Shown piece after piece: positions 1-14,971 of a stretch of DNA of 32,531 nt. The notes under the pieces were generated by a model. That model had not been told where the DNA came from. It did not search any database and saw only the letters and a program-made list of their open reading frames with translations. Position 1 is the stretch's first letter; each line of letters opens with the position of its first letter. The position numbers were made by a program, and so were the translations under genes. Source of the DNA: a virus. The stretch lies in the IMG/VR virus record IMGVR_UViG_3300029787_000197, positions 1 through 32,531 of that record; one strand, written 5' to 3'.

Positions 1-107
1 AACGACAATACAGTGAAACTGTATCCTACAAATGCTATAAGGGTTCTGCAGAATTAGAGGATAATATTGACGGTAGTAAGAGTATTAAGAAATTGATCTT
101 GAATTAA
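1..107 (+). CDS. C-terminal end of an unknown protein (truncated by window edge)
   Basis: One reading frame is open from the left edge (first full codon at base 3) to a TAA at 105-107, giving 34 residues that end in KLILN. The other two plus frames hit stops within the first 57 bases. The stop shares its last A with the ATG of the next gene (TAATG), the same tight coupling seen through this phage block, which supports it being real. The fragment is charged (Glu, Asp, Lys) and has no motif I recognise, so no function is offered. Confidence 0.6.
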   Translation, partial: RQYSETVSYKCYKGSAELEDNIDGSKSIKKLILN

Positions 108-670
108 TGTTATTATACGAACCATTCAAAGTCCAAATAGGTCAGGTTGAATTAAAACATGACTGTGAAAAATTAAAAGAATATTCACTCAAACTAAAAG
201 AAAAATCACCGGGAAGAAAAGTAAGTAACGTAGGTGGTTGGCAATCTAATGATTTATCAATAGATAAAAAAACAAAATCCCTAATGAATGAGATTGTAAC
301 TAAAACAAATGAGTATGCCAAAATATATAATTTCAATAAACCCCTAAAACTTTGGAACTTTTGGATAAATGTTAATTCTACAGGCTCTAGAAACATGATG
401 CATGTTCATCCTGGCTCTCCTGTTTCAGGAACTTTTTACATTGAAACACCTGAAGGCTCTGGTGCAATATCATTTACAAGGGGAGAAGATTTATTACAAT
501 ATCATTATGAGGGATGTTACAATAAACCAAATGCGTTTATTTCTGATAAATTTTTTATAAAACCTAAGCAAAATTATCTAATTTTATTTCCTGGATATTT
601 AAAACACGAGGTAGAGACAAACTTTTCTAAATATGATAGAATTTCTTTATCGTTTAATATGATATTTTGA
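107..670 (+). CDS. 2OG-Fe(II) oxygenase, TIGR02466-like (paralogue of the gene at 13908)
   Basis: The 187-residue protein has the pattern of phage TIGR02466-type Fe(II)/2-oxoglutarate oxygenases. A strand reads FWINVN (about 85-90), followed by HVHP (H99, H101), SG at 107-108 and an aromatic FYIE strand. The C-terminal half has LILFPGYLKH (H167), then R178 in RISLSF, which would bind the 2-oxoglutarate carboxylate. H99/H101 and H167 are the likely iron ligands. Such enzymes hydroxylate an unactivated carbon using O2; the substrate cannot be read from the sequence. The start overlaps the previous stop by one base and there is no clear ribosome site, so translation is probably coupled. It resembles the 192-residue protein at 13908-14486 over its whole second half. 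The fold class is well supported; the target is unknown. Confidence 0.82.
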   Translation: MLLYEPFKVQIGQVELKHDCEKLKEYSLKLKEKSPGRKVSNVGGWQSNDLSIDKKTKSLMNEIVTKTNEYAKIYNFNKPLKLWNFWINVNSTGSRNMMHVHPGSPVSGTFYIETPEGSGAISFTRGEDLLQYHYEGCYNKPNAFISDKFFIKPKQNYLILFPGYLKHEVETNFSKYDRISLSFNMIF

Positions 671-671
671 T

Positions 672-1148
672 ATGAATTTAACACGTAATTTTACACTTCA
701 GGAATTAACTAAATCTGATACTGCAATCAGAAGGGGTATTGATAATGAACCTAATGCAGATCAAATTGATAAACTGAAAAGACTTTGTGAAAAAATTCTT
801 CAACCCGTGCGTGATCAATTTGGCAGGGTAAAGGTGACCTCTGGTTATCGTAGCCCTGAGCTATGTGTTGCAATCGGCAGCAGTTTAAATTCACAGCATG
901 CCAAAGCTGAAGCGGTCGATTTCGAATGTGTTGGAGTTGACAATGCTGAAGTGGCAGATTGGGTAAAAACCCATTGCGAGACAGATCAACTTATTCTTGA
1001 ATTCTACACTCCGGGTGAGCCTAATTCTGGATGGATCCACGCAAGTTATGTAGAGTTTCAACCAAGAGCTCAATATATGAGAGCTTTCAAAGAAGACGGA
1101 AAAACTAAGTACAAACCTATCACTGGAAAAGCAGTAGATTTAGTATAA
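672..1148 (+). CDS. Peptidase M15-like murein peptidase (candidate endolysin)
   Basis: A 158-residue protein of the Peptidase_M15_3 / D-Ala-D-Ala carboxypeptidase-like family. The first 12 residues (NFTLQELTKS region) are the usual family start. Zinc-site residues are visible: H76 in SQH after VTSGYRSP (55-62), D83 in AVDFE, and H123 in GWIHASY. The family cleaves peptide cross-links of peptidoglycan, so host lysis or wall penetration is the likely role. It has no signal peptide or membrane segment, so a holin would be needed for release; a holin-like gene lies 24 kb away at 24807. The usual SxHxxGxAxD motif is altered here: the glycine position reads AKAEAVD. It begins one base after the previous stop, inside a chain of oxygenase genes rather than a lysis cassette. 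Confidence 0.85.
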   Translation: MNLTRNFTLQELTKSDTAIRRGIDNEPNADQIDKLKRLCEKILQPVRDQFGRVKVTSGYRSPELCVAIGSSLNSQHAKAEAVDFECVGVDNAEVADWVKTHCETDQLILEFYTPGEPNSGWIHASYVEFQPRAQYMRAFKEDGKTKYKPITGKAVDLV

Positions 1149-1153
1149 TATAA

Positions 1154-1171
1154 ATGCTACATCGGTAGCAT
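1154..1171 (+). promoter_or_regulatory. Start-codon hairpin with TATAAT box upstream
   Basis: A perfect 7-bp inverted repeat, ATGCTAC / GTAGCAT, with a 4-base loop ATCG. The 3' arm contains the first two bases of the ATG at 1170. There is no Shine-Dalgarno sequence in the 21-base gap. An exact TATAAT lies at 1144-1149, but no good -35 box is visible 17 bases before it. A transcript starting about seven bases after that box would begin at or next to the hairpin. The inverted repeat is seen directly; the regulatory role is inferred from recurrence at 9226, 11129, 24996 and 27071. Confidence 0.45.
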
Positions 1172-1706
1172 GGAACTCATTGATACAAATATACCAAAAG
1201 CAATAAATCGTGAGATACTTGACCATCTTGGAACAGTTGGTTGGAAATTTGCCTCTGATAAACAACGTAATCTAGCCGAACCGTTTCATCAATTTATTAC
1301 TGGCGATAAAGTTTTGGATAAAGGCATGTTTATAGCTACGTTTGAAAGACCTGAAATGAACCATACTCCAGATCCAGTGTTAAATAATTTTGGAAAGTGG
1401 GTGTTTTATTTGGTTCAACAGCGAACAAGTTTTAGTTTATTAAGACCTTATAGAATGTTTTGGAATTTTTACACACCTGTATCTAAGCCTGATTGGCATT
1501 GTGATGATCCTAACATAGGCAGCTATGTTTCAATACTATATAATTTACACACGAATGATGGTGGCACTGAGTTCCAAAGCGGTGAAAAGATTGAAAGCAA
1601 AGAAGGACAAGCTATTGTTTTTGAATCTCATCATACACATAGAGGTTATGCACCAACTGAAGTTCATCATAGATTTAATTTAAATATGATATGTTTGACC
1701 AAATAA
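1170..1706 (+). CDS. 2OG-Fe(II) oxygenase, prolyl 4-hydroxylase-like
   Basis: 178 residues with a classic double-stranded beta-helix triad: WHCDD gives H110 and D112, the distal histidine is H157 in HHTHRGY, and R168 in HHRFNLN would hold 2-oxoglutarate. The middle reads YVSILYNLH and GGTEF, the usual strand pattern of P4H-like enzymes. The family oxidises protein side chains or small molecules; the substrate here is unknown. The only in-frame start at the head of the open frame is the ATG inside the hairpin described at 1154. Its 3' end overlaps the next gene by 16 bases. Sequence similarity to the 107 oxygenase is limited to the fold motifs, so these are different subfamilies. Confidence 0.85.
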   Translation: MELIDTNIPKAINREILDHLGTVGWKFASDKQRNLAEPFHQFITGDKVLDKGMFIATFERPEMNHTPDPVLNNFGKWVFYLVQQRTSFSLLRPYRMFWNFYTPVSKPDWHCDDPNIGSYVSILYNLHTNDGGTEFQSGEKIESKEGQAIVFESHHTHRGYAPTEVHHRFNLNMICLTK

Positions 1707-2194
1707 AAAAAGCAATTAGAGAAAGCAAGGTTTGTCATATACCTAATGCAATAGTATCTGATCAGAAAATTGATTTTAATTATATAGGTAGTTTGCTAAA
1801 TAATAGTAATTGTAAAAACAAAATCAAAGTAGATAGAGAATTAGGTGCTAACGAAAATGATATTTTATCTAATCCATTTCAAATAAGAAAAGTTGAAAAT
1901 GCAAATCATATTGCTCCTTTACATAAAATTATATGTGATGGATTACCAGATGTTAAGATAGATCAAGCTGATATATTTTTTTCTATGAAAAGATCTATTG
2001 GTGCTGCGCATGTAGATAGAGAAAATTCTTTAATCTTAGGTGTATATAAAAATACAATTTATAGATTCGAAAACCAAGATTTGAGTGTTGTTGTTAAACC
2101 TGGTGATTTGTTGTTGTCTCCTTCAGGTCATACACACTTTGCAATGTCGTATCAGGAAAGAATTATTTTATCATGGGGATTGTACACAAACTAA
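1691..2194 (+). CDS. Cupin/2OG oxygenase-like protein with HxD...H triad
   Basis: 167 residues. AAHVDRE supplies H107 and D109; 38 residues on, SGHTHF supplies H147 or H149, followed by R157 in QERIILSW. Between them LILGVY and KPGDLLLSPSG look like cupin strands. This fits an Fe(II)/2OG dioxygenase or a JmjC/cupin-type enzyme. The N-terminal 90 residues are AT-rich in codon use and show no motif. The start overlaps the preceding gene by 16 bases and the end overlaps the methyltransferase by 22 bases, so the three genes are probably made together. A non-catalytic cupin is possible, but the complete HxD...H...R set argues for an enzyme. Confidence 0.72.
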   Translation: MFDQIKKAIRESKVCHIPNAIVSDQKIDFNYIGSLLNNSNCKNKIKVDRELGANENDILSNPFQIRKVENANHIAPLHKIICDGLPDVKIDQADIFFSMKRSIGAAHVDRENSLILGVYKNTIYRFENQDLSVVVKPGDLLLSPSGHTHFAMSYQERIILSWGLYTN

Positions 2195-2871
2195 ATACCA
2201 GAAACAAATTACGAATAATGCAACAATGCCTGAACAGAGGCATTCAATATGAAACAGTAGACTCCTGCATGTTCTACTATTCATTAGTCAAAATGAAAAA
2301 ACCAAAATTAGTTCTTGAGCTTGGCACAGGTAATGGTTCAACAGCATTTATGATTGGACTTGCTATGATAGAAAATAGCAGAGGTGAAGTAATTACCATA
2401 GATAACGGTAAAGACTGGATTGGAATGGGAGAATATGAAAAAGCCATTAGGTGGTTTACAAAACATTACAAATTAGAAAAGCATGTTGATTTTAGATGTG
2501 AAGATATAGATTTAGAAAAAATTAAAGTTGATAAAATTGATATGGTTATCAGTGATTTTGATCGAAGTGCAAAGTTTAATTTATCACTTATTATATGGTG
2601 GTTATATAATGCAAATGAATATTCATCTTTGTTTATTGATAGTTTGTCAGAAAATTTTGATGCGTATTCTCATGTAAAAGAAACCATTGATTATTTCAAT
2701 AGAGGAATTGTGCCTGGTAATTTACCAAAAAACCTATGGCCATTAGTGCAAGGTTACAAATTTACACAAACTGATATAAGAAAATGCAGGAATATGATAG
2801 AACATAATAGTATAACGTGGATAAAAAAAGAACCACATTTTATAGGAGTAGAAAAACTTTATTATGAATAA
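2173..2871 (+). CDS. SAM-dependent methyltransferase, class I
   Basis: 232 residues with Rossmann-type methyltransferase motif I LELGTGNGS at 48-56, an acidic residue closing strand 2 (ITID77NG) and a motif IV-like segment DMVISDFD at 123-130. The layout resembles the Methyltransf_24 group. No DNA methylase DPPY/NPPY or PCQ motif is seen, so a small molecule, sugar or protein acceptor is more likely than DNA. It overlaps its oxygenase neighbours at both ends (22 and 8 bases), which suggests use in the same modification pathway. Methyl transfer after hydroxylation is one possibility; this is inference. Confidence 0.8.
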   Translation: MGIVHKLNTRNKLRIMQQCLNRGIQYETVDSCMFYYSLVKMKKPKLVLELGTGNGSTAFMIGLAMIENSRGEVITIDNGKDWIGMGEYEKAIRWFTKHYKLEKHVDFRCEDIDLEKIKVDKIDMVISDFDRSAKFNLSLIIWWLYNANEYSSLFIDSLSENFDAYSHVKETIDYFNRGIVPGNLPKNLWPLVQGYKFTQTDIRKCRNMIEHNSITWIKKEPHFIGVEKLYYE

Positions 2872-3508
2872 AATTGAATTTCAATTTTTACCAAACTTAC
2901 CAATAGCGCGTGTGGTATTAGATAAAGATAAAATGGAAAAGATATACAACGAGTGTATCAATCTCAAAGATTATGAAAGTCAAAAATTTACTACAGGATT
3001 ACAATCTTACAAAACACCTATTCATTACAGAATGAGAGAATGTAACCAGCTTATTCAAGAAGAAGTCTTAGGTATTGGTAAAGTGTATCAAGAAAAATTC
3101 GATATATTTTCAAGAAATTTAACTAACTCAAATCCTGATTTGTTAATAGATGCATCAGATATATGGGTTAACTATCAGAAAAAAGGAGATTACCTTCCAT
3201 TACATTTACATGAGGGTCTATTGTCTTGGGTGTTATGGGTTCAAATACCTTATGACATTGAAAAAGAAAGAGAAATTGATAACACTGGTAAAGGGGGCAA
3301 AGGGAATACTTCGTGTTTTGCATTTAATTATTCTACAATTGATTGTAACTTACAATCACAAATTATACCTGTATCTAAAAAAGAAGAGGGAACTTTGCTG
3401 ATGTTTCCCTCAAAATTGCAACATTTATGTTATCCTTTCTATACTTCAGATGGTGAAAGAATATCAATATCAGGTAATTTAAAATATAGAATGGAGGTGG
3501 TAAAATAG
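2864..3508 (+). CDS. 2OG-Fe(II) oxygenase, phage type
   Basis: 214 residues. IWVNYQKKGDYLPLHLHEG holds H114 and H116 after a tryptophan-containing strand; GTLLMFPSKLQH gives the distal H187; R199 in GERISISGN is the 2-oxoglutarate contact. This is the arrangement of phage 2OG oxygenases related to TIGR02466, with an extra charged, Gly-rich loop (about 133-150) between the central strands. It overlaps the methyltransferase gene by 8 bases. It is the last of the first enzyme group; the GGAGGTGG near its 3' end serves as ribosome site for the small basic protein that follows. Confidence 0.8.
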   Translation: MNKIEFQFLPNLPIARVVLDKDKMEKIYNECINLKDYESQKFTTGLQSYKTPIHYRMRECNQLIQEEVLGIGKVYQEKFDIFSRNLTNSNPDLLIDASDIWVNYQKKGDYLPLHLHEGLLSWVLWVQIPYDIEKEREIDNTGKGGKGNTSCFAFNYSTIDCNLQSQIIPVSKKEEGTLLMFPSKLQHLCYPFYTSDGERISISGNLKYRMEVVK

Positions 3509-3511
3509 ATT

Positions 3512-3667
3512 ATGGCAATAAGTAGATCACAAATACCTGCACAAGTAGAGGGAAAGCTTAGAGGAGCTAGAAAGAACCCTATGGCTAAAAAGCTGAGGAC
3601 TTCAAAATATAAGCAAAAAGTGATACACTCCAAGAAAGTGTATAATCGTAAAAGGACAATAACGTAA
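3512..3667 (+). CDS. Small Lys/Arg-rich protein, 51 aa
   Basis: The ATG at 3512 follows a good ribosome site (GGAGGTGG, about 3493-3500), and the stop TAA at 3665-3667 shares its last A with the adaptor ATG. Sixteen of 51 residues are Lys or Arg, with no Cys and no hydrophobic segment. It is probably a nucleic-acid-binding or virion-associated peptide; no family is recognised. A 7-bp perfect hairpin (3623-3643) lies inside its 3' end. It parallels the 42-residue basic protein at 13780, which also sits at a boundary between structural and oxygenase genes. Confidence that it is translated is fairly high; its function is open. Confidence 0.65.
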   Translation: MAISRSQIPAQVEGKLRGARKNPMAKKLRTSKYKQKVIHSKKVYNRKRTIT

Positions 3668-4362
3668 TGGCAACATCAGGAACTACAGCATTTAATTTAA
3701 ATATTGATGAAATTATCGATGAGGGATACGAAAGATGTGGTCTTTCAACAACCTCTGGTTTCAGTCTTAAGTCAGCACGAAGAAGTCTTGATTTATTATT
3801 TGCTGAGTGGGGCAACAGAGGCATACACCTTTGGAAAGTAGCTTTGCATGAAAAAGCATTAGTGCAAGGACAAGCTGAGTATTCTGTGGCTTCAGACGTA
3901 AGCGATGTGCTAGAAGCTTTTATTTCATCTACTGCAGCTTCTTCTAATGGAATTAATACTCAAGATGTTTCTCTTACAAAAATTGATAGATCTGCATATG
4001 CTGCTTTACCAAATAAGCTTTCACAAGGTCAACCATCACAATATTATGTACAAAGACATAAGACACCTAAAATATTTTTATATCAATCGCCTGATTTGAA
4101 TACTTATACAACACTTAAATATTATGTAATAAAAAGAATTGAAGACGCTGGAGCATACACAAATGATGCAGATGTTGCATATAGATTCTTGCCATGCATG
4201 TGTGCTGGTCTTGCTTATTACATATCAATGAAGAAAGCACCACAAATGGTGCAACAAAATAAATTAATTTATGAGGATGAGCTGAAAAGAGCTTTAGATG
4301 AAGATGGACAAAGAGCATCTACATTTATTACTCCACAATCATTTTATCCTAATGGACTATAA
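3667..4362 (+). CDS. Head-tail adaptor protein (P22 gp4 / SU10 adaptor-like)
   Basis: 231 residues. The N-terminal pattern (NIDEIIDEGYERCG, then ARRSLDLLFAEWGNRG) is typical of helical adaptor proteins that dock under the portal ring in short-tailed phages. The middle is beta-rich, with a proline-bearing segment before QYYVQR, and the C-terminal region is helical (CAGLAYYISMKK, then YEDELKRALDED). In this family the protein links portal to tail nozzle, and the local order (adaptor, unknown, second adaptor) is common in marine podovirus-like genomes. The start is coupled to the basic protein by TAATG. Identification is by pattern, not alignment. Confidence 0.72.
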   Translation: MATSGTTAFNLNIDEIIDEGYERCGLSTTSGFSLKSARRSLDLLFAEWGNRGIHLWKVALHEKALVQGQAEYSVASDVSDVLEAFISSTAASSNGINTQDVSLTKIDRSAYAALPNKLSQGQPSQYYVQRHKTPKIFLYQSPDLNTYTTLKYYVIKRIEDAGAYTNDADVAYRFLPCMCAGLAYYISMKKAPQMVQQNKLIYEDELKRALDEDGQRASTFITPQSFYPNGL

Positions 4363-4364
4363 CA

Positions 4365-4811
4365 ATGGCAAAATACGCAACAGGTAAAAATTCAAAAGCA
4401 ATATCAGATAGATCTGGAATGCAATTTCCATATACTGAAATGGTTAAAGAATGGAATGGATCATTAGTTCATGTTTCTGAGTTTGAACCAAAGCACCCAC
4501 AGATAAGAAGAAAAAGAGCTGTTGCAGATGCTATAGCTTTACAAAACTCTAGAGTGATGAAATTTCAACAACCATCAGTCAAATTTGCAAACGATGTTAC
4601 AATATCAGATTCAGGGGGAGCTTCAGTTGGTGTTGCCAATCTAAGTCTACCAGGAGACTTTGCTTTTAGAACTGAAGTGTTTCCAACTACACATAGTGAT
4701 ATTACAAAAGGTCCTGGTGTTGCCTCTATGGTGCCTGAGGACCCATCTGTACAAAATCAAAGAAGAGAACTTAAAATGTTAGTAAGACAAGTAACGGTGG
4801 TAATATCATGA
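4365..4811 (+). CDS. Conserved phage protein between adaptor genes, unknown role
   Basis: 148 residues beginning MAKYATGKNSKAISDRSG and continuing with EMVKEWNG and a Glu-Pro-Lys-His-Pro-Gln segment. I recall this N-terminal pattern from adaptor regions of many marine phages, but I know no function. It has no Cys pair, membrane segment or enzyme motif; the region after about residue 70 is beta-like. The gene sits two bases after the first adaptor and overlaps the second by four bases (ATGA). A minor virion or connector role is the natural guess from position. Confidence 0.6.
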   Translation: MAKYATGKNSKAISDRSGMQFPYTEMVKEWNGSLVHVSEFEPKHPQIRRKRAVADAIALQNSRVMKFQQPSVKFANDVTISDSGGASVGVANLSLPGDFAFRTEVFPTTHSDITKGPGVASMVPEDPSVQNQRRELKMLVRQVTVVIS

Positions 4812-5464
4812 GTATTTCTCATTCTGCATTTATTACACAAGTTAGAAACTACGCAGAGGTAGATTCTAATGTTTTAACTGATACTATAATCGATGAGTTC
4901 ATTAGATCTGTTGAATTAGATGTAGCAGGAAAGGTAGATTATGACGACCTTAGAAAATATTCTACATCGACTTTTACTGCAAACAATAGGTTTGTAAGTT
5001 TACCTGGAGACCTTACGATTATGAGATCTATCGAGGTAATAAATGGCTCAACAAGAATATTTGCACAAAGAAGAGATACAAGTTTTATATCAGAATATAA
5101 TAACTCAGGAGCTACAGGTGTACCTGAGTATTGGGCAAACTGGGATGATTCTAATATCATTGTAGCACCTACTCCAGATCAAGCATATACAATTCAAATT
5201 AATTTTATTACTGATCCAAAACACTTTACATCGACTAATTCAACGTTTTTATCAACTTATCAAGAATCTATGCTTTTGCATGGTGTCCTATCTGAGGCTT
5301 TTAGGTTTTTAAAAGGACCCCAGGATATGTACAAACTGTATGAAACAAAGTACAATGAGGAAGTACAGAATTTTGCTCTTCAACAAATGGGGAGAAGAAG
5401 ACGTGCTGAATATGATGATGGAGTACCTAGAATTAAGATACCTTCACCATCACCAAATAGTTAA
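4808..5464 (+). CDS. Second adaptor-like / tail connector protein
   Basis: 218 residues. The C-terminal half has YQESMLLHGVLSEAFRFLKG followed by a helix around YKLYETKYNEEV, a signature of phage gp6/gp4-type adaptor and connector proteins. The N-terminal part has DEFIRSVELDVAGKV and a beta stretch with RFVSLPGDLT. It ends in a basic, proline-rich tail (GRRRRAEYDDG, then PSPSPNS). It probably forms the second ring of the neck or tail tube together with the product of 3667. The start overlaps the preceding stop by four bases. Confidence 0.65.
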   Translation: MSISHSAFITQVRNYAEVDSNVLTDTIIDEFIRSVELDVAGKVDYDDLRKYSTSTFTANNRFVSLPGDLTIMRSIEVINGSTRIFAQRRDTSFISEYNNSGATGVPEYWANWDDSNIIVAPTPDQAYTIQINFITDPKHFTSTNSTFLSTYQESMLLHGVLSEAFRFLKGPQDMYKLYETKYNEEVQNFALQQMGRRRRAEYDDGVPRIKIPSPSPNS

Positions 5465-5484
5465 AAATTTAAAAGGAGAAAACT

Positions 5485-5940
5485 ATGGCGATAACAACAA
5501 ATGCAATTTGCAATTCATTCAAAAAAGAATTGTTAGCTGGTGAGCATGACTTTGATACCGCTCCAGGTGGAGATACGTACAAGTTAGCTATGTTTACTTC
5601 TCAAGCAACGCTTGGGGCTTCTACTGTAGGTTACGCAACACCCAATGAAGTATCATCACCATCAGGTGGATACTCTGCTGGTGGAAAAGCTTTAGTCAAC
5701 TCAGGAGTAAAAGTATCTTCTGGTGTGGCTATAACAAGTTTTTCTAACTTGTCTTTCACTGGTGTGACTTTGACTGCTAGAGGTGCATTAATTTACAACA
5801 CAACAACTGATGCTGGTTCTGGAACCACAAACGCAGTTGCTGTACTAGATTTCGGCTCAGACAAAACTGCAACGTCTGGAACATTTACTATTCAGTTCCC
5901 TGCGTTCACAACTGCAGCTTCAATCTTAAGACTTGCTTAA
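5485..5940 (+). CDS. Putative virion protein, beta-rich, 151 aa
   Basis: 151 residues preceded by a strong ribosome site (AAAGGAG at about 5471-5477). The start MAITTNAICNSFKKELL and the later GGDTYKLAMFT, GYSAGGKAL and TIQFPAF are a pattern I recall from marine phage structural regions, without a certain function. It is rich in Ser, Thr, Gly and Ala and predicted to be mostly beta, as in decoration or fibre-base proteins. It sits between the adaptor and two repetitive fibre-like genes, which supports a virion role. Confidence 0.6.
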   Translation: MAITTNAICNSFKKELLAGEHDFDTAPGGDTYKLAMFTSQATLGASTVGYATPNEVSSPSGGYSAGGKALVNSGVKVSSGVAITSFSNLSFTGVTLTARGALIYNTTTDAGSGTTNAVAVLDFGSDKTATSGTFTIQFPAFTTAASILRLA

Positions 5941-5958
5941 AGTAGGTAAAATGAAAAT

Positions 5959-7314
5959 ATGTCTAATGCTTGGGGTCAATTAACTTGGGGAGAGAATGAT
6001 TGGGGTGCACAAAATAATACATCTCCAATCGCAGCTTCTCAAATTTTAAACTCAAGCATTGGAACAACATCAATCCCTAACGAAGGTTTAATTGAAATTG
6101 GTTGGGGAAGAGACACATGGAACGATAACGCAGCCTGGGGTATTGCTGGTACTCTTATCACCGGCTCAGTCACATTAACATCATCTGCAGGTCAAGTTAC
6201 AATCGATGCAGAAATAGGATCTGGTTGGGGTCGTGGTACATGGAACAATAATGAAGCTTGGGGTATTGCTGGAACTCTAATTACACCTTCTGTGTCGATG
6301 GCTTTCTCAACAGGACAAGTTACAATTGATTCTGAGATTAGTGTTGGTTGGGGTGGAGATGCATGGAACATAAATGCTTGGGGTGATCTTGCAGGAGCTT
6401 ATGTTGATGTAACAGGAACTCAATTTGCGTCAAGCGTTGGTAGTGTTACACAAAGTATTGATGCTCCAGTTGATGTAACAGGATCTCAACTAAACGGAAG
6501 TGTTGGTCAAGTAATTGGATCTGCAATTGTTGATGTAAGCCCAACTGGTATTCAAGCTACATTTAGTATTGGAAATGAAGATACAACACAAGGTGTTGAG
6601 CAAGATGTTACTGGATCACAGTTAGCTTCTTCAGTTGGATCTGTAACTATTGATAACACTTTCTTAATTGGAAGTGGTTGGGGTAGAGACACTTATGGCA
6701 ACTTAGGTTGGGGTGTTAATTATTCTGCTCTTCCTTCAATGGCTGCACTTACAATGTCAGTTGGTAATGAAGAGGCACAAACTGATGTTGAGGTATCTGT
6801 AACTGCACCAAACGCATTAGGATTTACATTTGCGGTACCATCGTTCTCAATACAAATTGATGCAGATATAACTGTCCTAGCTACTGAAGATCAATTAGAT
6901 ATGACTTTGGGTAGTTTCTCATTAGTACAAGATACTAACGAGCCTGTAACTGGTCAACAAATGACAGCATCTGTAGGTCAAGTAGATGCAGTTTCTGTAG
7001 CAGATGCAAGTGGAATACAAGGCACATTAACATTAGGAAACTTTACTCTAGTTCAGTCAACAAATGAGTCTGTCACAGGTCAACAATTGACTATGACAAT
7101 GGGTAACGCAGATGAGGTTCCTGATCAAATTGTTGGGGTATCAGGATTACAAGCTGCTACTTCTGTTGGAAGTGTTGGTATTGTTATTGATTGTGTAGTT
7201 GATGTAACGGGCACGGTATTGACTTCAACAGCCGGTAGCACTAGTATCTATGCATGGCGTGAGGTTGACCCTGGAGTAAATAATAATTGGACAGAGGTTG
7301 ATTTAGCAGCGTAA
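5959..7314 (+). CDS. Repetitive virion or fibre protein with WG and VTGxQL repeats
   Basis: 451 residues made almost wholly of repeats. Residues 1-150 carry Trp-Gly motifs (AWGQLTWG, then three units starting GWGRDTW, GWGRGTW and GWGGDAW, spaced exactly 41 residues apart). From about residue 155 on there are many shorter units of the form VTGxQLxxSVGxV, and the Trp motif recurs once near residue 235. Such Ser/Thr/Val/Gly repeats suggest a beta-solenoid or stacked beta fibre. There is no Cys-rich or enzymatic motif. The ATG at 5951 runs into a stop after four codons, so 5959 is used; only a weak AGGT lies upstream. It is probably a receptor-facing or tail-associated structural protein; its surface Thr, Ser and Asn would be suitable for modification. 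Confidence 0.65.
   Translation: MSNAWGQLTWGENDWGAQNNTSPIAASQILNSSIGTTSIPNEGLIEIGWGRDTWNDNAAWGIAGTLITGSVTLTSSAGQVTIDAEIGSGWGRGTWNNNEAWGIAGTLITPSVSMAFSTGQVTIDSEISVGWGGDAWNINAWGDLAGAYVDVTGTQFASSVGSVTQSIDAPVDVTGSQLNGSVGQVIGSAIVDVSPTGIQATFSIGNEDTTQGVEQDVTGSQLASSVGSVTIDNTFLIGSGWGRDTYGNLGWGVNYSALPSMAALTMSVGNEEAQTDVEVSVTAPNALGFTFAVPSFSIQIDADITVLATEDQLDMTLGSFSLVQDTNEPVTGQQMTASVGQVDAVSVADASGIQGTLTLGNFTLVQSTNESVTGQQLTMTMGNADEVPDQIVGVSGLQAATSVGSVGIVIDCVVDVTGTVLTSTAGSTSIYAWREVDPGVNNNWTEVDLAA
6100..6413 (+). repeat. Three tandem 123-bp coding repeats (WG units)
   Basis: GGTTGG starts at 6100, 6223 and 6346, each 123 bases (41 codons) apart. The encoded units begin GWGRDTW, GWGRGTW and GWGGDAW, and all share an AWG a few residues later. 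The third unit is incomplete. The DNA copies differ at many third positions while the protein is kept, so this is an old, selected repeat rather than a recent duplication. Confidence 0.85.
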
Positions 7315-7351
7315 GAAGTGTAAAATTATAATTATTTAGGAGAAAAATTTT

Positions 7352-8680
7352 ATGGCATCAAGTTATTCAACAGACCTCAAACTAGAGTTGATGGTAACCG
7401 GTGAAAATGCTGGTACATGGGGTGACAACACAAACGAAAATTTAAAATTACTTCAACAAGCAATTGCTGGATTTGAATCAGTAACACTTACAAATGGTGG
7501 TACAGTAACACTAGCGATGACTAACGGAGCATTATCAAACGCTCGTAATATGGTTATTAAGTTTGCTACAATTACTTTGAACAGTGCATCAGTTGTAACA
7601 ATCCCAGATGGAATTGAAAAATTCTACATCTTTGATTTGACTGCTGTGTCTGGAGTTTCAAACTTAACAATCAAAACTGTAAGTGGTACAGGTTTTGCAC
7701 CAGCAGAACAAAAAATTGTTGCTGCATATGCTGACGGTACAAACTTAAACGAAATTGCACTTGACACTTTAGGTGGTACAATCGGAACTGCTCAAATAGC
7801 AGACAATGCTGTTACAACTGCAAAGATTCCTGATAACGCAATTACAACTGCTAAGATTTCTGCAAACCAAGTTACAACTGCAAAAATACCTGACAACGCA
7901 ATTACAACTGCAAAAATTTCTGCACTTCAAGTAACAACTGCAAAAATTGCTAACGATGCTGTTGGTTCTGACCAATTAGCAAACACTCCAGTTTCAGCAG
8001 GTTCTTACACTAATGCTGCTATCACTGTTGATGCTCAAGGTAGAGTTACAGCTGCAGCTTCAGGAGCTGCTTCAGGTGGAGATGCATTTGACTTTACATT
8101 AGCTGTTGCTGGACCAGGACCAGTTTCTACAACTTACTCACCACTTAACCCTTCCTCAACTGCAGGTTATGGTTACATGGCTGGTGGATCTGGAAACGGT
8201 GGTCAAAGAGGAGTACCAGTTAGAATTGGTGGTAACGGTGGAACAGGATCATATGGTTTCTTTACATTCAATGCACCAGGTGGACTTAGCGGAACTACAG
8301 TTAACGTAGGTGGCCCAGGTGGTGGATCACAATTTGGTAACATCATGTCAGTATCTTCTGCAAACAATGGTGGAAGTCAGATAGATCCAGGTAACCCAGG
8401 TTCTGTAACTTTCAACTTACCAGGTGGTAACGTACCAGGTACAAACCAAAACTCATTAACAAATACTCCATTTGATAACAGTGCTGACTATGCACCGCTT
8501 GTCATGCTTTTTGAAGGAGAAACTACTGATGCATTTGGTAATACTTACCCAGGTGCTCAAAACGGATTCTTTTTAGTTCAAAATATTCAAGGAGGACAAG
8601 GTGGATCTCCAAACACACCAAGAACAGATGGTAATCCAGGATACTTATTCTTCTATGAGAAAAATGGAGGAGGATTCTAA
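7352..8680 (+). CDS. Tail fibre protein with 10-residue repeats and Gly-rich tip
   Basis: 442 residues. The N-terminal 40 residues (LELMVTGENAGTWGDNTNENL) are a common marine phage fibre head that anchors to the tail. Residues about 154-203 are five 10-residue repeats of the form (V/I)TTAKI plus four variable residues, alternating PDNA and SANQ/SALQ types. Residues about 210-240 contain TVDAQGRVTAA, a known fibre motif. The last 190 residues are Gly-, Asn- and Pro-rich (GGSGNGGQRG, GGNGGTG, GGPGGGS), like polyglycine or collagen-like fibre tips that bind the host surface. There is a strong ribosome site, AGGAG, at about 7339-7343. The last base overlaps the next ATG. Host recognition is the likely role. 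Confidence 0.82.
   Translation: MASSYSTDLKLELMVTGENAGTWGDNTNENLKLLQQAIAGFESVTLTNGGTVTLAMTNGALSNARNMVIKFATITLNSASVVTIPDGIEKFYIFDLTAVSGVSNLTIKTVSGTGFAPAEQKIVAAYADGTNLNEIALDTLGGTIGTAQIADNAVTTAKIPDNAITTAKISANQVTTAKIPDNAITTAKISALQVTTAKIANDAVGSDQLANTPVSAGSYTNAAITVDAQGRVTAAASGAASGGDAFDFTLAVAGPGPVSTTYSPLNPSSTAGYGYMAGGSGNGGQRGVPVRIGGNGGTGSYGFFTFNAPGGLSGTTVNVGGPGGGSQFGNIMSVSSANNGGSQIDPGNPGSVTFNLPGGNVPGTNQNSLTNTPFDNSADYAPLVMLFEGETTDAFGNTYPGAQNGFFLVQNIQGGQGGSPNTPRTDGNPGYLFFYEKNGGGF
7811..7960 (+). repeat. Five tandem 30-bp coding repeats in the fibre shaft
   Basis: The sequence (G/A)TTACAACTGC (one copy GTAACAACTGC) recurs at 7811, 7841, 7871, 7901 and 7931. Units 1/3 and 2/4 are more alike, giving a 60-bp higher-order period. 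They encode TTAKI-containing 10-residue units of the fibre shaft. Units lie in frame without spacers, so this is not a CRISPR. Confidence 0.9.
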
Positions 8681-9218: not shown

Positions 9219-9231
9219 ATCTTGTATGTTC
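9215..9231 (+). promoter_or_regulatory. Start-codon hairpin at 9226
   Basis: GAACAT / ATGTTC, a perfect 6-bp inverted repeat with loop CTTGT. The whole ATG at 9226-9228 is in the 3' arm. No Shine-Dalgarno sequence precedes this start. Same arrangement as at 1154 and 27068. Confidence 0.4.
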
Positions 9232-9987
9232 GAGAAGAAAATTAAATTTCTTTGTCTAAAAGAATATCTTGAATTTGCTGATCATAAACCTGAGCCGGTT
9301 TCTCTAAACTTACCAGAGTGGTATAAAAAATTAGAGCATACTTTCAAAAACATGACAGTAAAAGGTTGTCTTCCTTTTATGGATACTTTGACAACTGGTT
9401 ATTTAATAAGAGCAAGTCAAGACTTTTACATTGATTTACAACACAATCCTGAAGCAAAGAATGATGAAGACAAATGGCATATGAGATGTGCACCTGCATT
9501 TGCAGTAGCTTCTCCATCATTAAAAGCTAACGCTGAATATTTGGGTTTAGATATTTCAGGAAGCACACATCACTATAAACAATTAGAAGGCTCAAAATTT
9601 ATAGAAAGAAATTTAGCATCTCATTTTATTAAGTTTGATAATCCTTGGTATATAGAAACACCTCCAGGATATTCTTGTCTATTTACACCTCCTCTTAACA
9701 ATGGTGACGATAGGTTTGAATGTTTAGCAGGTATAGTTGATACAGACACTCATTATATGAGAATAAACTTTCCTGCAGTATTCAATGGTTGGAAATATAA
9801 AAATGGTTATAAGGGCACTATTAAAAAGGGGACACCTTTGGTACAAGTAATACCATTTAAAAGAGAAAGTTGGAAAATGGAGATAGGTACTGTAGACAAA
9901 AAAGAGGTTGATAGAAGAGGATTTAAAATGACAGTACAAAGATTTAAATATATAAGATCTGTATGGCACAAGAAGATAACAAAATAA
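9226..9987 (+). CDS. DUF6065-like phage protein, unknown function
   Basis: 253 residues. KGCLPFMDTLTTGYLI (about 46-61), then PPGYSCLFTPPLN (about 144-156), GIVDTDTHY and a C-terminal KGTPLVQVIPFKRE (about 203-216) form a pattern I associate with DUF6065-type proteins, found in phages and in bacterial secondary-metabolism clusters. No catalytic motif is known to me. Its 3' end overlaps the next oxygenase gene by 25 bases, so it probably belongs to the same enzyme group. It starts in a hairpin (9215-9231) without a ribosome site. The assignment rests on remembered pattern only. Confidence 0.5.
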   Translation: MFEKKIKFLCLKEYLEFADHKPEPVSLNLPEWYKKLEHTFKNMTVKGCLPFMDTLTTGYLIRASQDFYIDLQHNPEAKNDEDKWHMRCAPAFAVASPSLKANAEYLGLDISGSTHHYKQLEGSKFIERNLASHFIKFDNPWYIETPPGYSCLFTPPLNNGDDRFECLAGIVDTDTHYMRINFPAVFNGWKYKNGYKGTIKKGTPLVQVIPFKRESWKMEIGTVDKKEVDRRGFKMTVQRFKYIRSVWHKKITK

Positions 9988-10571
9988 TTTTTGATCAAAC
10001 ACAAGACAATATAGGTAAATGGGTAAAGATTTACGATAACTTTATGCCTATGGAAAAACTTGCAAAGCTATTACAGTTTTGTAATTCAGATGTATGTAAA
10101 GAACATTGGATAGCTGGAAAAGTTGGTGACAGAGGAGATGGTGGTAAAGTTAAAAAAGAAACAAGAGTTGTTGATTGTTTAGGTCTAACTAATATTGCAA
10201 AATCATATACTGCTGTACACTATGCTTGGTATATGAAAAGTGTAGTTTGTAAATTAATAGAAAAATATGTGCAGGACACAGGTGCACAAATATTTGATTT
10301 TAGAGTTCACGATATAGAGGTTTTAAGATATAATGTAGGTGGTAAGTATGAACCACATATTGATGCAAGTCTAACATATCCAAGAAGAGTAAGTATGATA
10401 ATGCTTCTTAACAATGATTATGAAGGTGGTGAATTATATTTCCCTGGTGTTGGAGAAATTAAGGTCGCGCCAAATAGAGCTATTGTATGGCCAAGTAATT
10501 ATGTTTACATTCATGGTGTTAAACCAATAACAAAAGGAACAAGGTATAGTATAGTATCATGGCTACTTTAA
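9963..10571 (+). CDS. 2OG-Fe(II) oxygenase, prolyl 4-hydroxylase family
   Basis: 202 residues and the clearest P4H-type member here. YEPHIDAS gives H132 and D134, YIHGVKPI gives distal H184, and R194 in GTRYSIVSW binds 2-oxoglutarate. The strand YEGGELYFPGVG followed by KVAPNRAIVWPS is typical of P4H catalytic domains. The N-terminal KIYDNFMP start is also family-like. The family hydroxylates proline or other residues in proteins, or free amino acids; the target here is unknown. It overlaps the preceding gene by 25 bases and the following by 13. Confidence 0.9.
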   Translation: MAQEDNKIIFDQTQDNIGKWVKIYDNFMPMEKLAKLLQFCNSDVCKEHWIAGKVGDRGDGGKVKKETRVVDCLGLTNIAKSYTAVHYAWYMKSVVCKLIEKYVQDTGAQIFDFRVHDIEVLRYNVGGKYEPHIDASLTYPRRVSMIMLLNNDYEGGELYFPGVGEIKVAPNRAIVWPSNYVYIHGVKPITKGTRYSIVSWLL

Positions 10572-11107
10572 AAGAAGCAAAAATTATAAAAGATTTTATT
10601 ACACCAGAGGAAGCAAATTTTTATTTGTGTTATACACAGATGCATCAGAGAAACAATCCTATGGCAAGTAATCCAAATAGTTATGAAGCACCTAATGATG
10701 ATACTGCATATTATTCAGATCCCCTTACTGAAAGTCTAATGTTAATGAAACATGAACGTATGGAAAAAGAATTAGGTATTAAACTATTTCCAACATACAC
10801 ATATTGGAGAATGTATACCTATGGATCTGAACTTAAAAAACACACAGATAGAAAAGCTTGTGAAGTATCAGTTACACTTCATCTAGGTTCAGATGGCACT
10901 CCTTGGCCTATTTGTTTTAACAACGAATGTTATGAATTAAAGCCAGGAGAAGCAGCTATCTACAAGGGAATCGAATGGCCACATTACAGAAAAGAACCAT
11001 ATAAAGGTGACTTTTATAGTCAGGTATTTATGCATTATGTTCATGCTGATGGTTTATACCAGGCATACAAATTCGATCAGAGACCTATGGTAGGTTTAAA
11101 GAAATAA
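10559..11107 (+). CDS. 2OG-Fe(II) oxygenase-like protein
   Basis: 182 residues. After YWRMYTYGS comes KKHTDRKAC with H95 and D97, then VSVTLHLGSDG, KPGEAAIYKG and WPHYRKE with distal H142 and R144. The order of strands and triad fits the 2OG oxygenase fold, with the distal histidine followed closely by arginine. Its C-terminal tail (residues 160-182) is extra. The start overlaps the P4H gene by 13 bases in another frame, so coupled translation is likely. It differs from its neighbour enough to be a separate subfamily. Confidence 0.78.
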   Translation: MATLKEAKIIKDFITPEEANFYLCYTQMHQRNNPMASNPNSYEAPNDDTAYYSDPLTESLMLMKHERMEKELGIKLFPTYTYWRMYTYGSELKKHTDRKACEVSVTLHLGSDGTPWPICFNNECYELKPGEAAIYKGIEWPHYRKEPYKGDFYSQVFMHYVHADGLYQAYKFDQRPMVGLKK

Positions 11108-11128
11108 GGCTTTATGCTATAATAAAGC
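11095..11128 (+). promoter_or_regulatory. Start-codon hairpin with overlapping promoter-like boxes
   Basis: A perfect 7-bp inverted repeat GCTTTAT / ATAAAGC (11109-11115 and 11122-11128, loop GCTATA) ends on the base before the ATG at 11129. An exact TATAAT lies at 11118-11123, spanning the loop and 3' arm. It is preceded at 17 bases by TTTAAA (11095-11100), a four-of-six match to -35. There is no Shine-Dalgarno sequence. A start seven bases after the -10 box would give a leaderless message. Confidence 0.42.
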
Positions 11129-13276
11129 ATGCCTTTAACAAATGTACAGATAAGACCAGGATTCAATAAACAAGTAACTCAAACAGGCGCAGAAGGTCAA
11201 TGGACTGATGGTGACTTTGTGAGATTTAGATATGGGTTGCCTGAAAAAATAGGTGGCTGGGAACAGATTCTTAATAAAACTTTAGTTGGTGCAGTAAGGG
11301 AACAATTAGTTTGGGCAGACTTACTTGGTAGAAAGTATGCTGCACTTGGTTCTAACAAAGCTTTGACTATTTATTTTGAAGGAGCTTTCTACGATATCAC
11401 TCCATTAGACACAGCTCTTACTGGAGCTACATTCACTACAGTGAATGGGTCGCCAACGGTTACCGTAAACAAATCTGGACATGAATTTTCTAATGGTGAC
11501 TTATTTACATTTACATCAGTAACACCACCAGTAGGTGCAGGTTACGTAGCGAGTGATTTTACAACAAACACTTTTGAGGTAGTAAACAGAATAGATGCAG
11601 ATAGTTTTACAATTACTATGGCTGCTAATGCAGGAACCTCAGTTTCTAACAGTGGGTCAGCTACCATAAATCCTTATGTAGAAGTTGGTCCTTTGAATCA
11701 AACTGGAGGATACGGATGGGGAACAGCAGCATGGGGTGGAGCATCAGGAACTGTATCTACACTTAACGGAGCTTTACTTAACGATTCTGCAGGAACAGGC
11801 GGATCTGGAACGTCAATCACATTATCATCTACTGTAGGGTTTCCAACTTCTGGTACAATCAAAGTTGGAGCTGAGTTTATATCGTACACCGGAACATCTA
11901 GTAACGATCTTACTGGCATCACAAGAAATGTTGCCGGAACACAATCTGCACATTCGAATGGTTCAGGGGTTGAATATTATATTGGTTGGGGACAAGCTAG
12001 TTTATCTACAACGGTAATTCTTGATCCTGCGTCTTGGTCTTTAGATCATTTTGGACAAGTCTTAATTGCTACAGTTAAAAATGGTAAAACATATAACTGG
12101 GATCCTTCTGTTGCAAACGCGTTGAATACTAGAGCTACAGCAGTTACAGGAGCCCCTACTAAATCTGTAATGTCAATCGTATCTGAAAGAGACAGACACC
12201 TTATTATTTTAGGAACAGAAACAACTGTTGGTGATGCAGCAACTCAAGATAAAATGTTTATTAGATTTTCTGACCAAGAAAACACAAGCACATATGCACC
12301 TACATCTACAAACACTGCAGGTACTTTTAGGCTAGATTCTGGTGTAAAAATTGTTGGAGCTGTAAGAGCCAAAGATTATATTTTAATTCTTACTGATACC
12401 TCTGCTTATGTAATGCAGTTTGTAGGTCCACCTTTTACTTTCAGTATAAGACAGGTAGGATCTAATTGTGGTCTTATTGGTCAACATGCATTGAGGTATG
12501 TTAATGGTGCTGTCTGGTGGATGGGTCAAGCTGGTGGTTTCTTTGTTTATGATGGTACAGTTAAAAACGTTCCTTGTTTGGTAGAGGATTTTGTATTTAC
12601 AAGTAAAGGAACTAATCTTGGTCTTAACTACAATGCAGGTGAACAAATCTATGCAGGTCTAAATCATTTATATGAAGAGATAAGTTGGTTTTATTGTAAG
12701 AATGGCTCAGAGCAAATTGACAGAGTTGTAACTTACAATTATGCAGAAGGTCTGTGGACTACAGGATCATTATCAAGAACGTCTTGGCATGATTCAACTT
12801 TATACGATGAACCATATGCAACAGAATATACTGCTGCAGCTACACCTAGCTTTCCTGTCATACAAGGTGTTACATCACAGAACGGAGCTACTACATACTA
12901 TGAGCATGAGGTAGGCAACAATCAAGTTGATTCGTCAGGTAATAAAACAGCTATACCTGCTTTTATACAGTCAGGAGATTTTGACTTAGATATAGAAGGT
13001 AATGGTCAATTTTTTATGTCTATGAGAAGATTTGTGCCAGACTTTAAATTACTAACAGGAGATGCACAGGTTACAATTAATCTTAGAAACTTCCCATCTG
13101 ATTCAGCTTCTTCATCACCTTTGGGTCCATTTACAATAAATAGTTCTACTGCTAAAATAGACACAAGAGCTAGATCTAGATTTGCTAATCTTAAAATTGC
13201 TAATCTATCAACTGATCAAAACTGGAGATACGGAACATTTAGAGCTGATATACAACCAGACGGAATGAGAGGCTAA
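11129..13276 (+). CDS. Packaged-DNA stabilisation / tail nozzle protein (P22 gp10-like)
   Basis: 715 residues. The first 45 (PLTNVQIRPGFNKQVTQTG, then GDFVRFRYGLPEKIGGW) are the hallmark start of phage stabilisation/nozzle proteins in marine podovirus-like genomes. Two modules look inserted: about 97-180 (beta, TVTVNKSGHEF and TNTFEVVN) and about 193-288, which begins with GYGWGTAAWGG and continues with a TSITLSSTVGFPTSG module seen in many phage proteins. The remainder resembles a beta-propeller-like nozzle (SIVSERDRHLIILG, GLIGQHALRYVNGAVWWMG). The WG motif also occurs repeatedly in the fibre-like protein at 5959. The role is to close the head and form the tail channel. Confidence 0.78.
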   Translation: MPLTNVQIRPGFNKQVTQTGAEGQWTDGDFVRFRYGLPEKIGGWEQILNKTLVGAVREQLVWADLLGRKYAALGSNKALTIYFEGAFYDITPLDTALTGATFTTVNGSPTVTVNKSGHEFSNGDLFTFTSVTPPVGAGYVASDFTTNTFEVVNRIDADSFTITMAANAGTSVSNSGSATINPYVEVGPLNQTGGYGWGTAAWGGASGTVSTLNGALLNDSAGTGGSGTSITLSSTVGFPTSGTIKVGAEFISYTGTSSNDLTGITRNVAGTQSAHSNGSGVEYYIGWGQASLSTTVILDPASWSLDHFGQVLIATVKNGKTYNWDPSVANALNTRATAVTGAPTKSVMSIVSERDRHLIILGTETTVGDAATQDKMFIRFSDQENTSTYAPTSTNTAGTFRLDSGVKIVGAVRAKDYILILTDTSAYVMQFVGPPFTFSIRQVGSNCGLIGQHALRYVNGAVWWMGQAGGFFVYDGTVKNVPCLVEDFVFTSKGTNLGLNYNAGEQIYAGLNHLYEEISWFYCKNGSEQIDRVVTYNYAEGLWTTGSLSRTSWHDSTLYDEPYATEYTAAATPSFPVIQGVTSQNGATTYYEHEVGNNQVDSSGNKTAIPAFIQSGDFDLDIEGNGQFFMSMRRFVPDFKLLTGDAQVTINLRNFPSDSASSSPLGPFTINSSTAKIDTRARSRFANLKIANLSTDQNWRYGTFRADIQPDGMRG

Positions 13277-13440
13277 TGGCAAAAATTAATATTATAATAC
13301 CTGAACCAAGAAGCGAGTATAGTGAAGAAAACCAAAGACAAATCTCACAAGCTTTAAGAACTACTCAAGATCAACTTAATACAAATTTTCAACAAGAACT
13401 TAAAAACGAACAGGATGCTTTTAATTATTTCTTATCATGA
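13276..13440 (+). CDS. Small coiled-coil-like protein, 54 aa
   Basis: The ATG shares its A with the stop of the nozzle gene, and the TGA overlaps the next ATG by four bases, so it is part of the late chain. Residues 12-50 are hydrophilic and helical (EENQRQISQALRTTQ, then FQQELKNEQDAF), fitting a short coiled coil. Small genes of this kind often follow the nozzle gene in marine phages; the role is unknown and may be a minor virion or assembly factor. Confidence 0.6.
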   Translation: MAKINIIIPEPRSEYSEENQRQISQALRTTQDQLNTNFQQELKNEQDAFNYFLS

Positions 13441-13787
13441 CAATACGATATAAAAACCAAGGATATAAACAAACTGGGACTGGTAAGACAACAGTATTCA
13501 CATGTCCTACTGATGCAACAGTTATAGTAAAAAGTATTTATTGTGCAAATAACGATGGGTCATCAGCAATTTTAGTCAACATGAATTTAGTAGACTCATC
13601 TGATTCAAACACAGAGTATGAATTTTTTAGAGATGATGTTGCTGCTAAATCACAAGTCAATGCTTCTCCCCAAGGATTGAACTTAGAAGCAGGGGATGCA
13701 ATAACAGTACAAGCAGCTACAGGCAGCGGTAAAATTCAAGGTGCAATAAGTTTTGCACTCATAGATAGATCACAGGAAAATGGCTAG
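13437..13787 (+). CDS. Putative virion protein, beta-sandwich-like, 116 aa
   Basis: 116 residues with alternating hydrophobic strands: KTTVFTCPTDATVIVKSIYCAN, AILVNMNLVD, LNLEAGDAITVQ and IQGAISFALIDR. The pattern suits a small beta-sandwich decoration or fibre-base protein; I have seen similar proteins in marine phage structural regions without a firm function. It overlaps both neighbours (4 and 8 bases). Confidence 0.55.
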   Translation: MTIRYKNQGYKQTGTGKTTVFTCPTDATVIVKSIYCANNDGSSAILVNMNLVDSSDSNTEYEFFRDDVAAKSQVNASPQGLNLEAGDAITVQAATGSGKIQGAISFALIDRSQENG

Positions 13788-13908
13788 AGTAAAATTTGTA
13801 AACTTTACCCCAAGACCAAAACCACCTAAACGTCCAGGTCGTCATAAGAAAAGACTTAACAAAAGCGAGAAACGGAGCTATAAGAAGTACAACTCTCAGG
13901 GACGTTAG
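13780..13908 (+). CDS. Small Lys/Arg/Pro-rich protein, 42 aa
   Basis: The ATG at 13780 follows CACAGGAAA (AGGA five bases before the start region); the stop TAG at 13906-13908 shares its G with the GTG of the next oxygenase gene. Sixteen of 42 residues are Lys or Arg and five of the first 19 are Pro (TPRPKPPKRPGRHKKR). It is too short to fold alone; a nucleic-acid-binding peptide, a packaged basic peptide, or a substrate of the adjacent hydroxylases are possible. It mirrors the 51-residue basic protein at 3512. Confidence 0.6.
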   Translation: MARVKFVNFTPRPKPPKRPGRHKKRLNKSEKRSYKKYNSQGR

Positions 13909-14486
13909 TGATTCAACATATTCTTAAAACACCAATCCATGTAGGAAAATTAGAAGAACCTATATTAACAAGATCGATAATGACGATGGTTAATGATTGT
14001 ATGCATACCAAAAATTTTAGAACAGAAAGCAATTTTGGTGGATTACAAACTAATAAGTATGATGCGAATACAAACGAAAAACTTTCAGTAAAACTATTAG
14101 AAGAGACCACTAAATACGTTGAGTCTTTACATAGAAAAAAACAATTTAAAATAACACTTAATGGATTTTGGATTAATATAAATATGAAAAATCATTTTAA
14201 CGTAGAGCATATGCATTATAATTATCAAAACAAATTTTCTGGTATATGGTATGTGCAGTGTGGTGAGGGGTCTGGTAATTTAGTATTTAAAGGACGTGAT
14301 GACTTTGTATCAGTAAGCCAACTAGACCAATATTTTAATAAAGAGTTTACTAACGATTATGAATTACAACCAAAACCTAATGATCTTATTTTGTTTCCGT
14401 CATATCTTAAACATTGGGTAAAACCTAACATGACTGAAACACCTAGAATATCAGTAGCTTTTGATATAGGTTTTATTGACGTATGA
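13908..14486 (+). CDS. 2OG-Fe(II) oxygenase, TIGR02466-like (paralogue of the gene at 107)
   Basis: 192 residues starting at GTG, with AGGGA upstream and a one-base overlap with the basic protein stop. Family motifs: FWININ (87-92), EHMHYN (H101, H103), FSGIWYV, GEGSG, LILFPSYLKHW (H169) and PRISVAF (R180). The same order occurs in the protein at 107-670 (FWINVN, HVHP, SGTFYI, GSG, LILFPGYLKH, RISLSF), so these are paralogues about 13.8 kb apart. The reaction class is clear; the substrate is not. It overlaps the next oxygenase by four bases. Confidence 0.85.
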   Translation: MIQHILKTPIHVGKLEEPILTRSIMTMVNDCMHTKNFRTESNFGGLQTNKYDANTNEKLSVKLLEETTKYVESLHRKKQFKITLNGFWININMKNHFNVEHMHYNYQNKFSGIWYVQCGEGSGNLVFKGRDDFVSVSQLDQYFNKEFTNDYELQPKPNDLILFPSYLKHWVKPNMTETPRISVAFDIGFIDV

Positions 14487-14971
14487 AAATAATTGACAAC
14501 TTTTTAAATGACGAAGAATTTAAACCTATAGTAGAAACATTTTTGGGTGAAGAGTTTCCATGGTTTTACAATGATGCAATATCAGAACGTGGTGATGACA
14601 GGTTTCAATTTATACATGGACTGTACAAAGACTGTACATTTGTTTCTAATTTTGCACCACTTATGTTTCCAATACTAAACAAACTTAATATGTTTATGTT
14701 AAAGAGAATCAAAGCAAATCTAATTACAAGAACAGAAAAACAACTTAAATCTATACCACATATTGATTTTAAAAATATCAAAACAGCCATATTCTACGTG
14801 AACACGAACAACGGATACACACAATTCGACAACAAAACTGTGCCTTCAGTTGCTAATAGAATTGTAATATTTGACAGTAATCTTAAGCACTCTTCAGTAT
14901 CTCAAACAAATACAAAACAAAGGGTGGTTATAAATTTTAATTATGTTACACAGGAAAACAATGAAAATTAA
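14483..14971 (+). CDS. 2OG-Fe(II) oxygenase, P4H-like short form
   Basis: 162 residues. It begins MKIIDNFLNDEEF, the typical start of 2OG oxygenases of phage and bacteria. The triad is H93 and D95 in PHIDF, distal H136 in NLKHSSV, and R147 in KQRVVINFNY. Between them, TAIFYVNTNNGYTQF replaces the usual GGxxxF strand with NNGYTQF. Closely coupled to the preceding oxygenase (ATGA overlap). Together they form the third oxygenase site in the window. Confidence 0.82.
   Translation: MKIIDNFLNDEEFKPIVETFLGEEFPWFYNDAISERGDDRFQFIHGLYKDCTFVSNFAPLMFPILNKLNMFMLKRIKANLITRTEKQLKSIPHIDFKNIKTAIFYVNTNNGYTQFDNKTVPSVANRIVIFDSNLKHSSVSQTNTKQRVVINFNYVTQENNEN

Follow-up and report, generated by a model that had tools for sequence, protein, structure and literature searches.

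PHD-like oxygenases are reported to be widespread in marine phages (Phold paper, PMC12774648). Up to five 2-oxoglutarate (2OG)-Fe(II) oxygenase genes per genome were described in cyanomyoviruses (Sullivan et al. 2010, PMC3037559). Pelagiphages infect Pelagibacter, a bacterium abundant in the ocean. Across their HTVC023P-type group, eight different 2OG-Fe(II) types that are not orthologous were reported; these genes often lie near each other and beside a gene annotated as ferrochelatase, which was tied to the regulation of haem and iron (Wittmers et al. 2022, PMC9599517). A second study (PMC11561400) treats the same family, phrog_2954, as an auxiliary gene for a ferrochelatase and reports its enrichment in seasonal viruses. 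Here we analysed a 32,531-base viral fragment, IMG/VR record IMGVR_UViG_3300029787_000197 (hereafter the window), which derives from an HTVC023P-type pelagiphage and carries eight oxygenase genes, named here by their start positions: 107, 1170, 1691, 2864, 9963, 10559, 13908 and 14483. As a statement of identity alone, these are almost certainly single-domain Fe(II)/2OG-type oxygenases from five subfamilies.

All eight open reading frames named in the original prediction are present and fall in the Fe(II)/2OG oxygenase superfamily, seven by profile and 10559 by fold; the several subfamilies it had proposed were resolved as five by profile searches. Four of the eight genes exceeded Pfam cut-offs: 107 (PF13759, E = 7e-21), 2864 (PF13759, 1.4e-13), 13908 (PF13759, 4e-19) and 9963 (PF13640, 9.5e-16). 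Gene 107 also matched TIGR02466 (3.5e-25). At the NCBIfam cut-off of 62.5 bits for that family, 107 (89 bits) and 13908 (74.4 bits) passed and 2864 (30.3 bits) failed, yet the latter passes PF13759. Genes 1170 and 14483 matched phrog_274 (4e-18 and 2.6e-49, respectively) and, below threshold, PF13640 (6e-5 and 0.002). Gene 10559 matched phrog_2954 (4.8e-50) and no Pfam family, and 1691 gave weak cupin/JmjC matches alone in the library profile searches. The relatives of 107 in the Protein Data Bank (PDB), 2rg4 and 3bvc, are both uncharacterised. A family profile of 1691, built from four divergent types, aligned with the JmjC 50S ribosomal protein L16 arginine hydroxylase (4ccl) across the HxD...H region at a whole-sequence E of 2.9e-5; the similarity is borderline (best single-domain i-Evalue, 0.04) and 1691 is half the length of that enzyme. 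Comparisons of profiles between subfamilies were weak (probability of approximately 20%).

The metal-binding triad, HxD/E or HxH...H, occurs in all eight genes and is kept among their homologues. The three TIGR02466-like members use HxH, like their relatives: in a set of 81 sequences, the three histidines were conserved at 94-96% and the arginine at 71%. Corresponding values were 93% for H and D, 86% for the distal H and 90% for R in the phrog_274 set (29 sequences), and 100%, 87%, 100% and 84% for H, D, H and R in the 9963 set (61 sequences). H107, D109, H149 and R157 of 1691 were invariant in the four-sequence alignment down to 26% identity. In the 10559 set (55 sequences), H95 and D97 were conserved at 100% and H142 at 98%. 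An iron and 2OG site of the form HxD/HxH...H...R, attributed to all eight genes by the original prediction, was therefore complete in seven; 10559 keeps H95, D97 and H142 without the usual arginine. A loose H-x-[DEH]...H...[RK]x[ST] pattern was found in 8.7% of shuffled versions of the eight proteins. Because shuffles carry the motif this often, we rejected the short motif as evidence in itself, and the assignments rest on profiles and site conservation. The double-stranded beta-helix fold is predicted for 10559, the other seven being assigned by sequence. Enzymatic activity and use of 2OG would be expected from these sites, with most reserve for 10559.

The PHROGs label of phrog_274, 'DNA endonuclease V', was taken as wrong for 1170 and 14483 on the basis of their oxygenase site and their PF13640/TIGR02466 similarity. 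This label has been copied into records such as that of phage 023Pt_psg01. Three related loci encode phrog_274-like proteins between a 10559 homologue and the tail-hub gene (L009:9538-9981, L008:549-992 and L076:4801-5283). These have lost the HxD and the distal histidine, still match the family profile (E from 4e-5 to 3e-16) and are possibly pseudo-enzymes with a non-catalytic role.

PHROGs gives family phrog_2954 the name ferrochelatase, as do most annotated phage records among those listed. Gene 10559 matched no family of Pfam or NCBIfam at E ≤ 1, ferrochelatase included, and a 48-sequence profile of its family recovered no ferrochelatase chain from PDB sequences. In this family, H95, D97, R98 and H159 do not vary, and H142 and R144 hardly do; its HxDRxxC motif is kept in HTVC008M, HTVC033P, P-SSM7, S-CAM22 and ACG-2014f. 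The AlphaFold model of 10559 had a mean predicted local distance difference test score (pLDDT) of 94.3. Its best Foldseek matches were Pseudomonas prolyl-4-hydroxylase, HIF prolyl hydroxylase 2 (PHD2) and the chlorella-virus collagen prolyl hydroxylase, and VIA-align gave Z scores of approximately 14-15 over 144-173 residues with P3H1, 2rg4, PiuC and PHD2. Ferrochelatase was absent among the Foldseek and VIA-align matches listed, although absence from these is not exclusion. We rejected the ferrochelatase identity on the lack of a profile match and of any ferrochelatase among those listed fold matches. Judged from the model, the conserved iron ligands and the fusion to the prolyl-hydroxylase-like type in cyanophage ACG-2014f (below), phrog_2954 is very probably a double-stranded beta-helix metal oxygenase.

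The predicted fold of 10559 is like that of the prolyl 4-hydroxylases (Pseudomonas PPHD, PHD2, viral vCPH and PiuC/PKHD), but identity to them is just ~13%, and 10559 is without their usual 2OG-binding arginine. Gene 9963, for its part, resembles prolyl 4-hydroxylases in sequence. In the 10559 sequence, neither Arg nor Lys follows the distal histidine where one would normally be found, so its use of 2OG is uncertain; candidate residues are R84, R98 and R144. The correction is not wholly new, since the GenBank records of S-CREM1, S-SCSM1 and 023Pt_psg01 already name 10559 homologues oxygenases. A search of open PMC text found no paper flagging the phrog_2954 label as wrong.

The nearest annotated relatives of the window are the Pelagibacter podophages HTVC023P and HTVC027P and phage 023Pt_psg01, with which its gene order agrees. 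Membership of the HTVC023P type follows from a homologous, syntenic late region that includes the tail hub (11129, 715 residues, 63% identical to HTVC023P gp72) and the glycosyltransferase region (74% DNA identity). Genomes of this type are 57-61 kb. The window is approximately half of one, so further oxygenase genes could lie outside it, including upstream of 107.

One or two such genes had been presumed usual in marine phages and the number here unusual; this was wrong. Separate oxygenase genes number four in HTVC023P, three in HTVC027P and four in 023Pt_psg01, and long IMG/VR relatives carry approximately five to seven, one of them (L053) having seven in 19 kb. Based on these counts and the published reports, we rejected rarity of the cluster. 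The window shares its group, tail-region site and 'ferrochelatase' neighbour with the published HTVC023P-type phages (PMC9599517). It differs in holding all eight genes in one 15-kb stretch, which is above any related record counted, at the top of the relatives' range and continuous with it. Similarly, in HTVC008M four 2OG oxygenases and a 10559 homologue (gp068-gp072) follow one another within the virion genes, with tail genes on one side and baseplate genes on the other, but HTVC008M is a T4-like myovirus with other surrounding genes. Cyanomyoviruses (PMC3037559) carry several genes of the same families per genome together with a 'ferrochelatase domain' gene, and P-SSM2 has six TIGR02466-like places. 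Their genomes are approximately three times larger or more, and the 10559 homologue lies beside replication genes, unlike in the window.

We investigated the linkage of the oxygenases to tail genes using 80 viral contigs from IMG/VR fetched by the tail-hub protein alone, 60 of which had at least 1.5 kb of upstream sequence. These 60 loci were not picked for oxygenases; they are close kin, hence not 60 independent events, and may include the window's own record. An oxygenase gene lay within 2.6 kb upstream of the tail-hub gene in all 60, and both the 9963 and the 10559 types lay just upstream in 48. The pair was accompanied by the DUF6065 gene (9226) in 38 of the 60, and a fibre homologue lay within 5 kb in 32 of the 34 loci with enough sequence. 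The isolates HTVC023P and HTVC027P, and 023Pt_psg01, have oxygenases at the same site as the window. In HTVC027P (L004:14093-15754, equivalent to MN698241.1 42092-43753), these point the opposite way from the tail genes, an arrangement that most relatives do not share.

In the window, the 9963 and 10559 genes overlap by 13 bases. In cyanophage ACG-2014f, one 362-residue protein joins the two: residues 11-182 match the 10559 family (E = 3e-45) and residues 187-361 match the 9963 family (E = 4e-45); phrog_3531 matches both window proteins because this type of fusion holds both domains. The two enzymes probably work jointly on a shared substrate. The product of the DUF6065 gene (model pLDDT, 87) was considered as a ninth oxygenase and not counted: it had faint dUTPase-like matches only (E of approximately 2e-3), with no oxygenase among the fold matches shown. 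DUF6065 homologues are common in haloarchaeal tailed viruses, adjoining thymidylate synthase in HSTV-2, and one is near ribonucleotide reductase in cyanophage S-RIM4.

The gene order bears out the three groups between structural genes of a late region. The first (107-3508) lies beside the M15 peptidase and head-tail genes, includes a methyltransferase and is kept in order in near relatives. The middle group (9963-11107) lies between fibre and tail hub, and the third (13908-14971) lies ahead of two glycosyltransferase-like genes. Genes within groups abut or overlap, by 4 to 29 bases. Scans of the window for promoters and terminators returned no more sites than shuffled sequence.

A coordinated modification of a phage product, as first suggested, is possible, and we favour it because the oxygenases are steadily placed beside tail genes. 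In such a scheme, the oxygenases would be co-expressed late with the tail proteins and would hydroxylate side chains of tail or receptor-binding proteins. The hydroxyl groups may then be the points at which the nearby glycosyltransferases and methyltransferase act; the outcome would be a diversified virion surface. The closest solved relatives are mostly protein-acting (P4H, PHD2, EF-Tu hydroxylase and L16 arginine hydroxylase), which favours this scheme. Taken whole, with the pair and the glycosylation link, hydroxylation of tail or receptor-binding proteins is a tentative proposal that we rate somewhat short of an even chance.

Several observations weigh against it. The 10559 homologues of P-SSM7 and S-CAM22 are placed away from tail genes, with a DNA methyltransferase (dam) on one side and the clamp-loader gene gp62 on the other; the ACG-2014f fusion is near ribonucleotide reductase, and the P-SSM2 members are scattered. 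Some relatives at the same site are without metal ligands, suggesting non-catalytic roles for some copies. Adjacency to tail genes may reflect merely a tolerant insertion site or late expression. Finally, a search of the window for collagen-like G-X-Y runs found none, and a collagen-like substrate within it was rejected.

Modification of host proteins during infection, such as translation factors or ribosomal proteins, in place of virion proteins is an unlikely alternative. The match of the 1691 profile to L16 arginine hydroxylase, the presence of the Pseudomonas EF-Tu prolyl hydroxylase 4iw3 among the best matches of the 10559 model and the replication-region location of cyanophage homologues of 10559 all speak for it. 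Against these stands the strong tail-gene linkage in pelagiphages, and at ~13% identity the substrates of those hydroxylases are not transferable. The cyanophage arrangement, in which 10559 homologues adjoin a DNA methyltransferase, would also fit modification or repair of phage DNA or its nucleotides, as would the 'DNA endonuclease V' label of phrog_274 and the DUF6065 neighbour, which has a faint dUTPase-like fold and, in other viruses, lies close to genes for thymidylate synthase or ribonucleotide reductase. We consider a DNA target improbable: none of the eight genes matched AlkB or TET/JBP families in the Pfam profile search, and in HTVC023P-type phages the oxygenases sit with tail genes, not replication genes.

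Small molecules, 2OG balance, or nitrogen or iron metabolism have been proposed as targets of such genes in cyanophages (PMC3037559) and, with the ferrochelatase partner, in pelagiphages (PMC9599517), and host iron-uptake genes rise during infection in a study of HTVC022P and HTVC027P (PMC12753301). A role as auxiliary metabolic genes nevertheless appears quite unlikely, as the partner annotated as ferrochelatase apparently is not one. Moreover, a set of many divergent small paralogues in one genome, located among the tail genes, is more in keeping with diversified substrates than with a single metabolic step. There is likewise only a small chance that the site is a tolerant one gathering fast-turning oxygenase genes without a shared pathway. 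The differing numbers and subfamilies among relatives, the inversion in HTVC027P and the loss of metal ligands in some copies would be explained in this way, but not the retention of the middle pair in most of the loci or the fusion of its two domains in ACG-2014f.

Coordinates of the oxygenase genes and neighbouring features in the window
Feature	Position	Strand	Site residues or match
2OG-Fe(II) oxygenase, TIGR02466/PF13759 (phrog_81)	107..670	+	H99xH101, H167, R178
M15 peptidase, probable endolysin, between oxygenase genes	672..1148	+	PF08291, 1.1e-17
2OG oxygenase-like, phrog_274	1170..1706	+	H110xD112, H157, R168
JmjC/ribosomal-oxygenase-like protein	1691..2194	+	H107xD109, H149, R157; sequence only
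S-adenosylmethionine (SAM)-dependent methyltransferase, in overlapping run of first group	2173..2871	+	PF13578, 5e-6; overlaps both neighbours
2OG-Fe(II) oxygenase, PF13759 (phrog_81)	2864..3508	+	H114xH116, H187, R199
Tail fibre protein, glycine-rich C-terminus	7352..8680	+	phrog_892 and other tail-fibre families
DUF6065/phrog_7084 protein, conserved first gene of middle cassette	9226..9987	+	Faint dUTPase-like fold
Prolyl-hydroxylase-like 2OG oxygenase, PF13640/phrog_61	9963..10571	+	H132xD134, H184, R194
phrog_2954 'ferrochelatase', reassigned as predicted double-stranded beta-helix oxygenase	10559..11107	+	H95xD97, H142; usual 2OG-binding Arg absent
Tail hub/stabilisation-type virion protein, HTVC023P gp72 homologue	11129..13276	+	phrog_3287, 1.1e-86
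2OG-Fe(II) oxygenase, TIGR02466/PF13759 (phrog_81)	13908..14486	+	H101xH103, H169, R180
2OG oxygenase-like, phrog_274	14483..14971	+	H93xD95, H136, R147
Group 1 glycosyltransferase, shortly downstream of third oxygenase group	15424..16356	+	PF00534, 1.4e-15
Possible second glycosyltransferase	16340..17191	+	Weak Anp1 match, PF03452, 3.4e-4, under curated cut-off

Two further features of the window were recorded. Positions 5959-7314 encode a virion-region protein with repeated WGxxxWNxNxWG-type and VTGxQLxxSVG-type motifs and without a family match. Positions 31950-32531 contain the start of a gene with a borderline match to a carbamoyltransferase N-terminus (PF02543, E = 4e-5); the contig ends within this gene.

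Reassigning phrog_2954 as an oxygenase also raises a question that can be tested: are the tail proteins of pelagiphages hydroxylated? A broader reading, in which marine phages carry a multi-enzyme protein-hydroxylation module that includes the abundant family phrog_2954, paired with a prolyl-hydroxylase-like partner, and that would diversify tail proteins and affect host recognition, is doubtful at present. If phrog_2954 is an oxygenase, the iron and haem reading of the family falls, and the ferrochelatase and oxygenase signals would merge into one, that of oxygenases.

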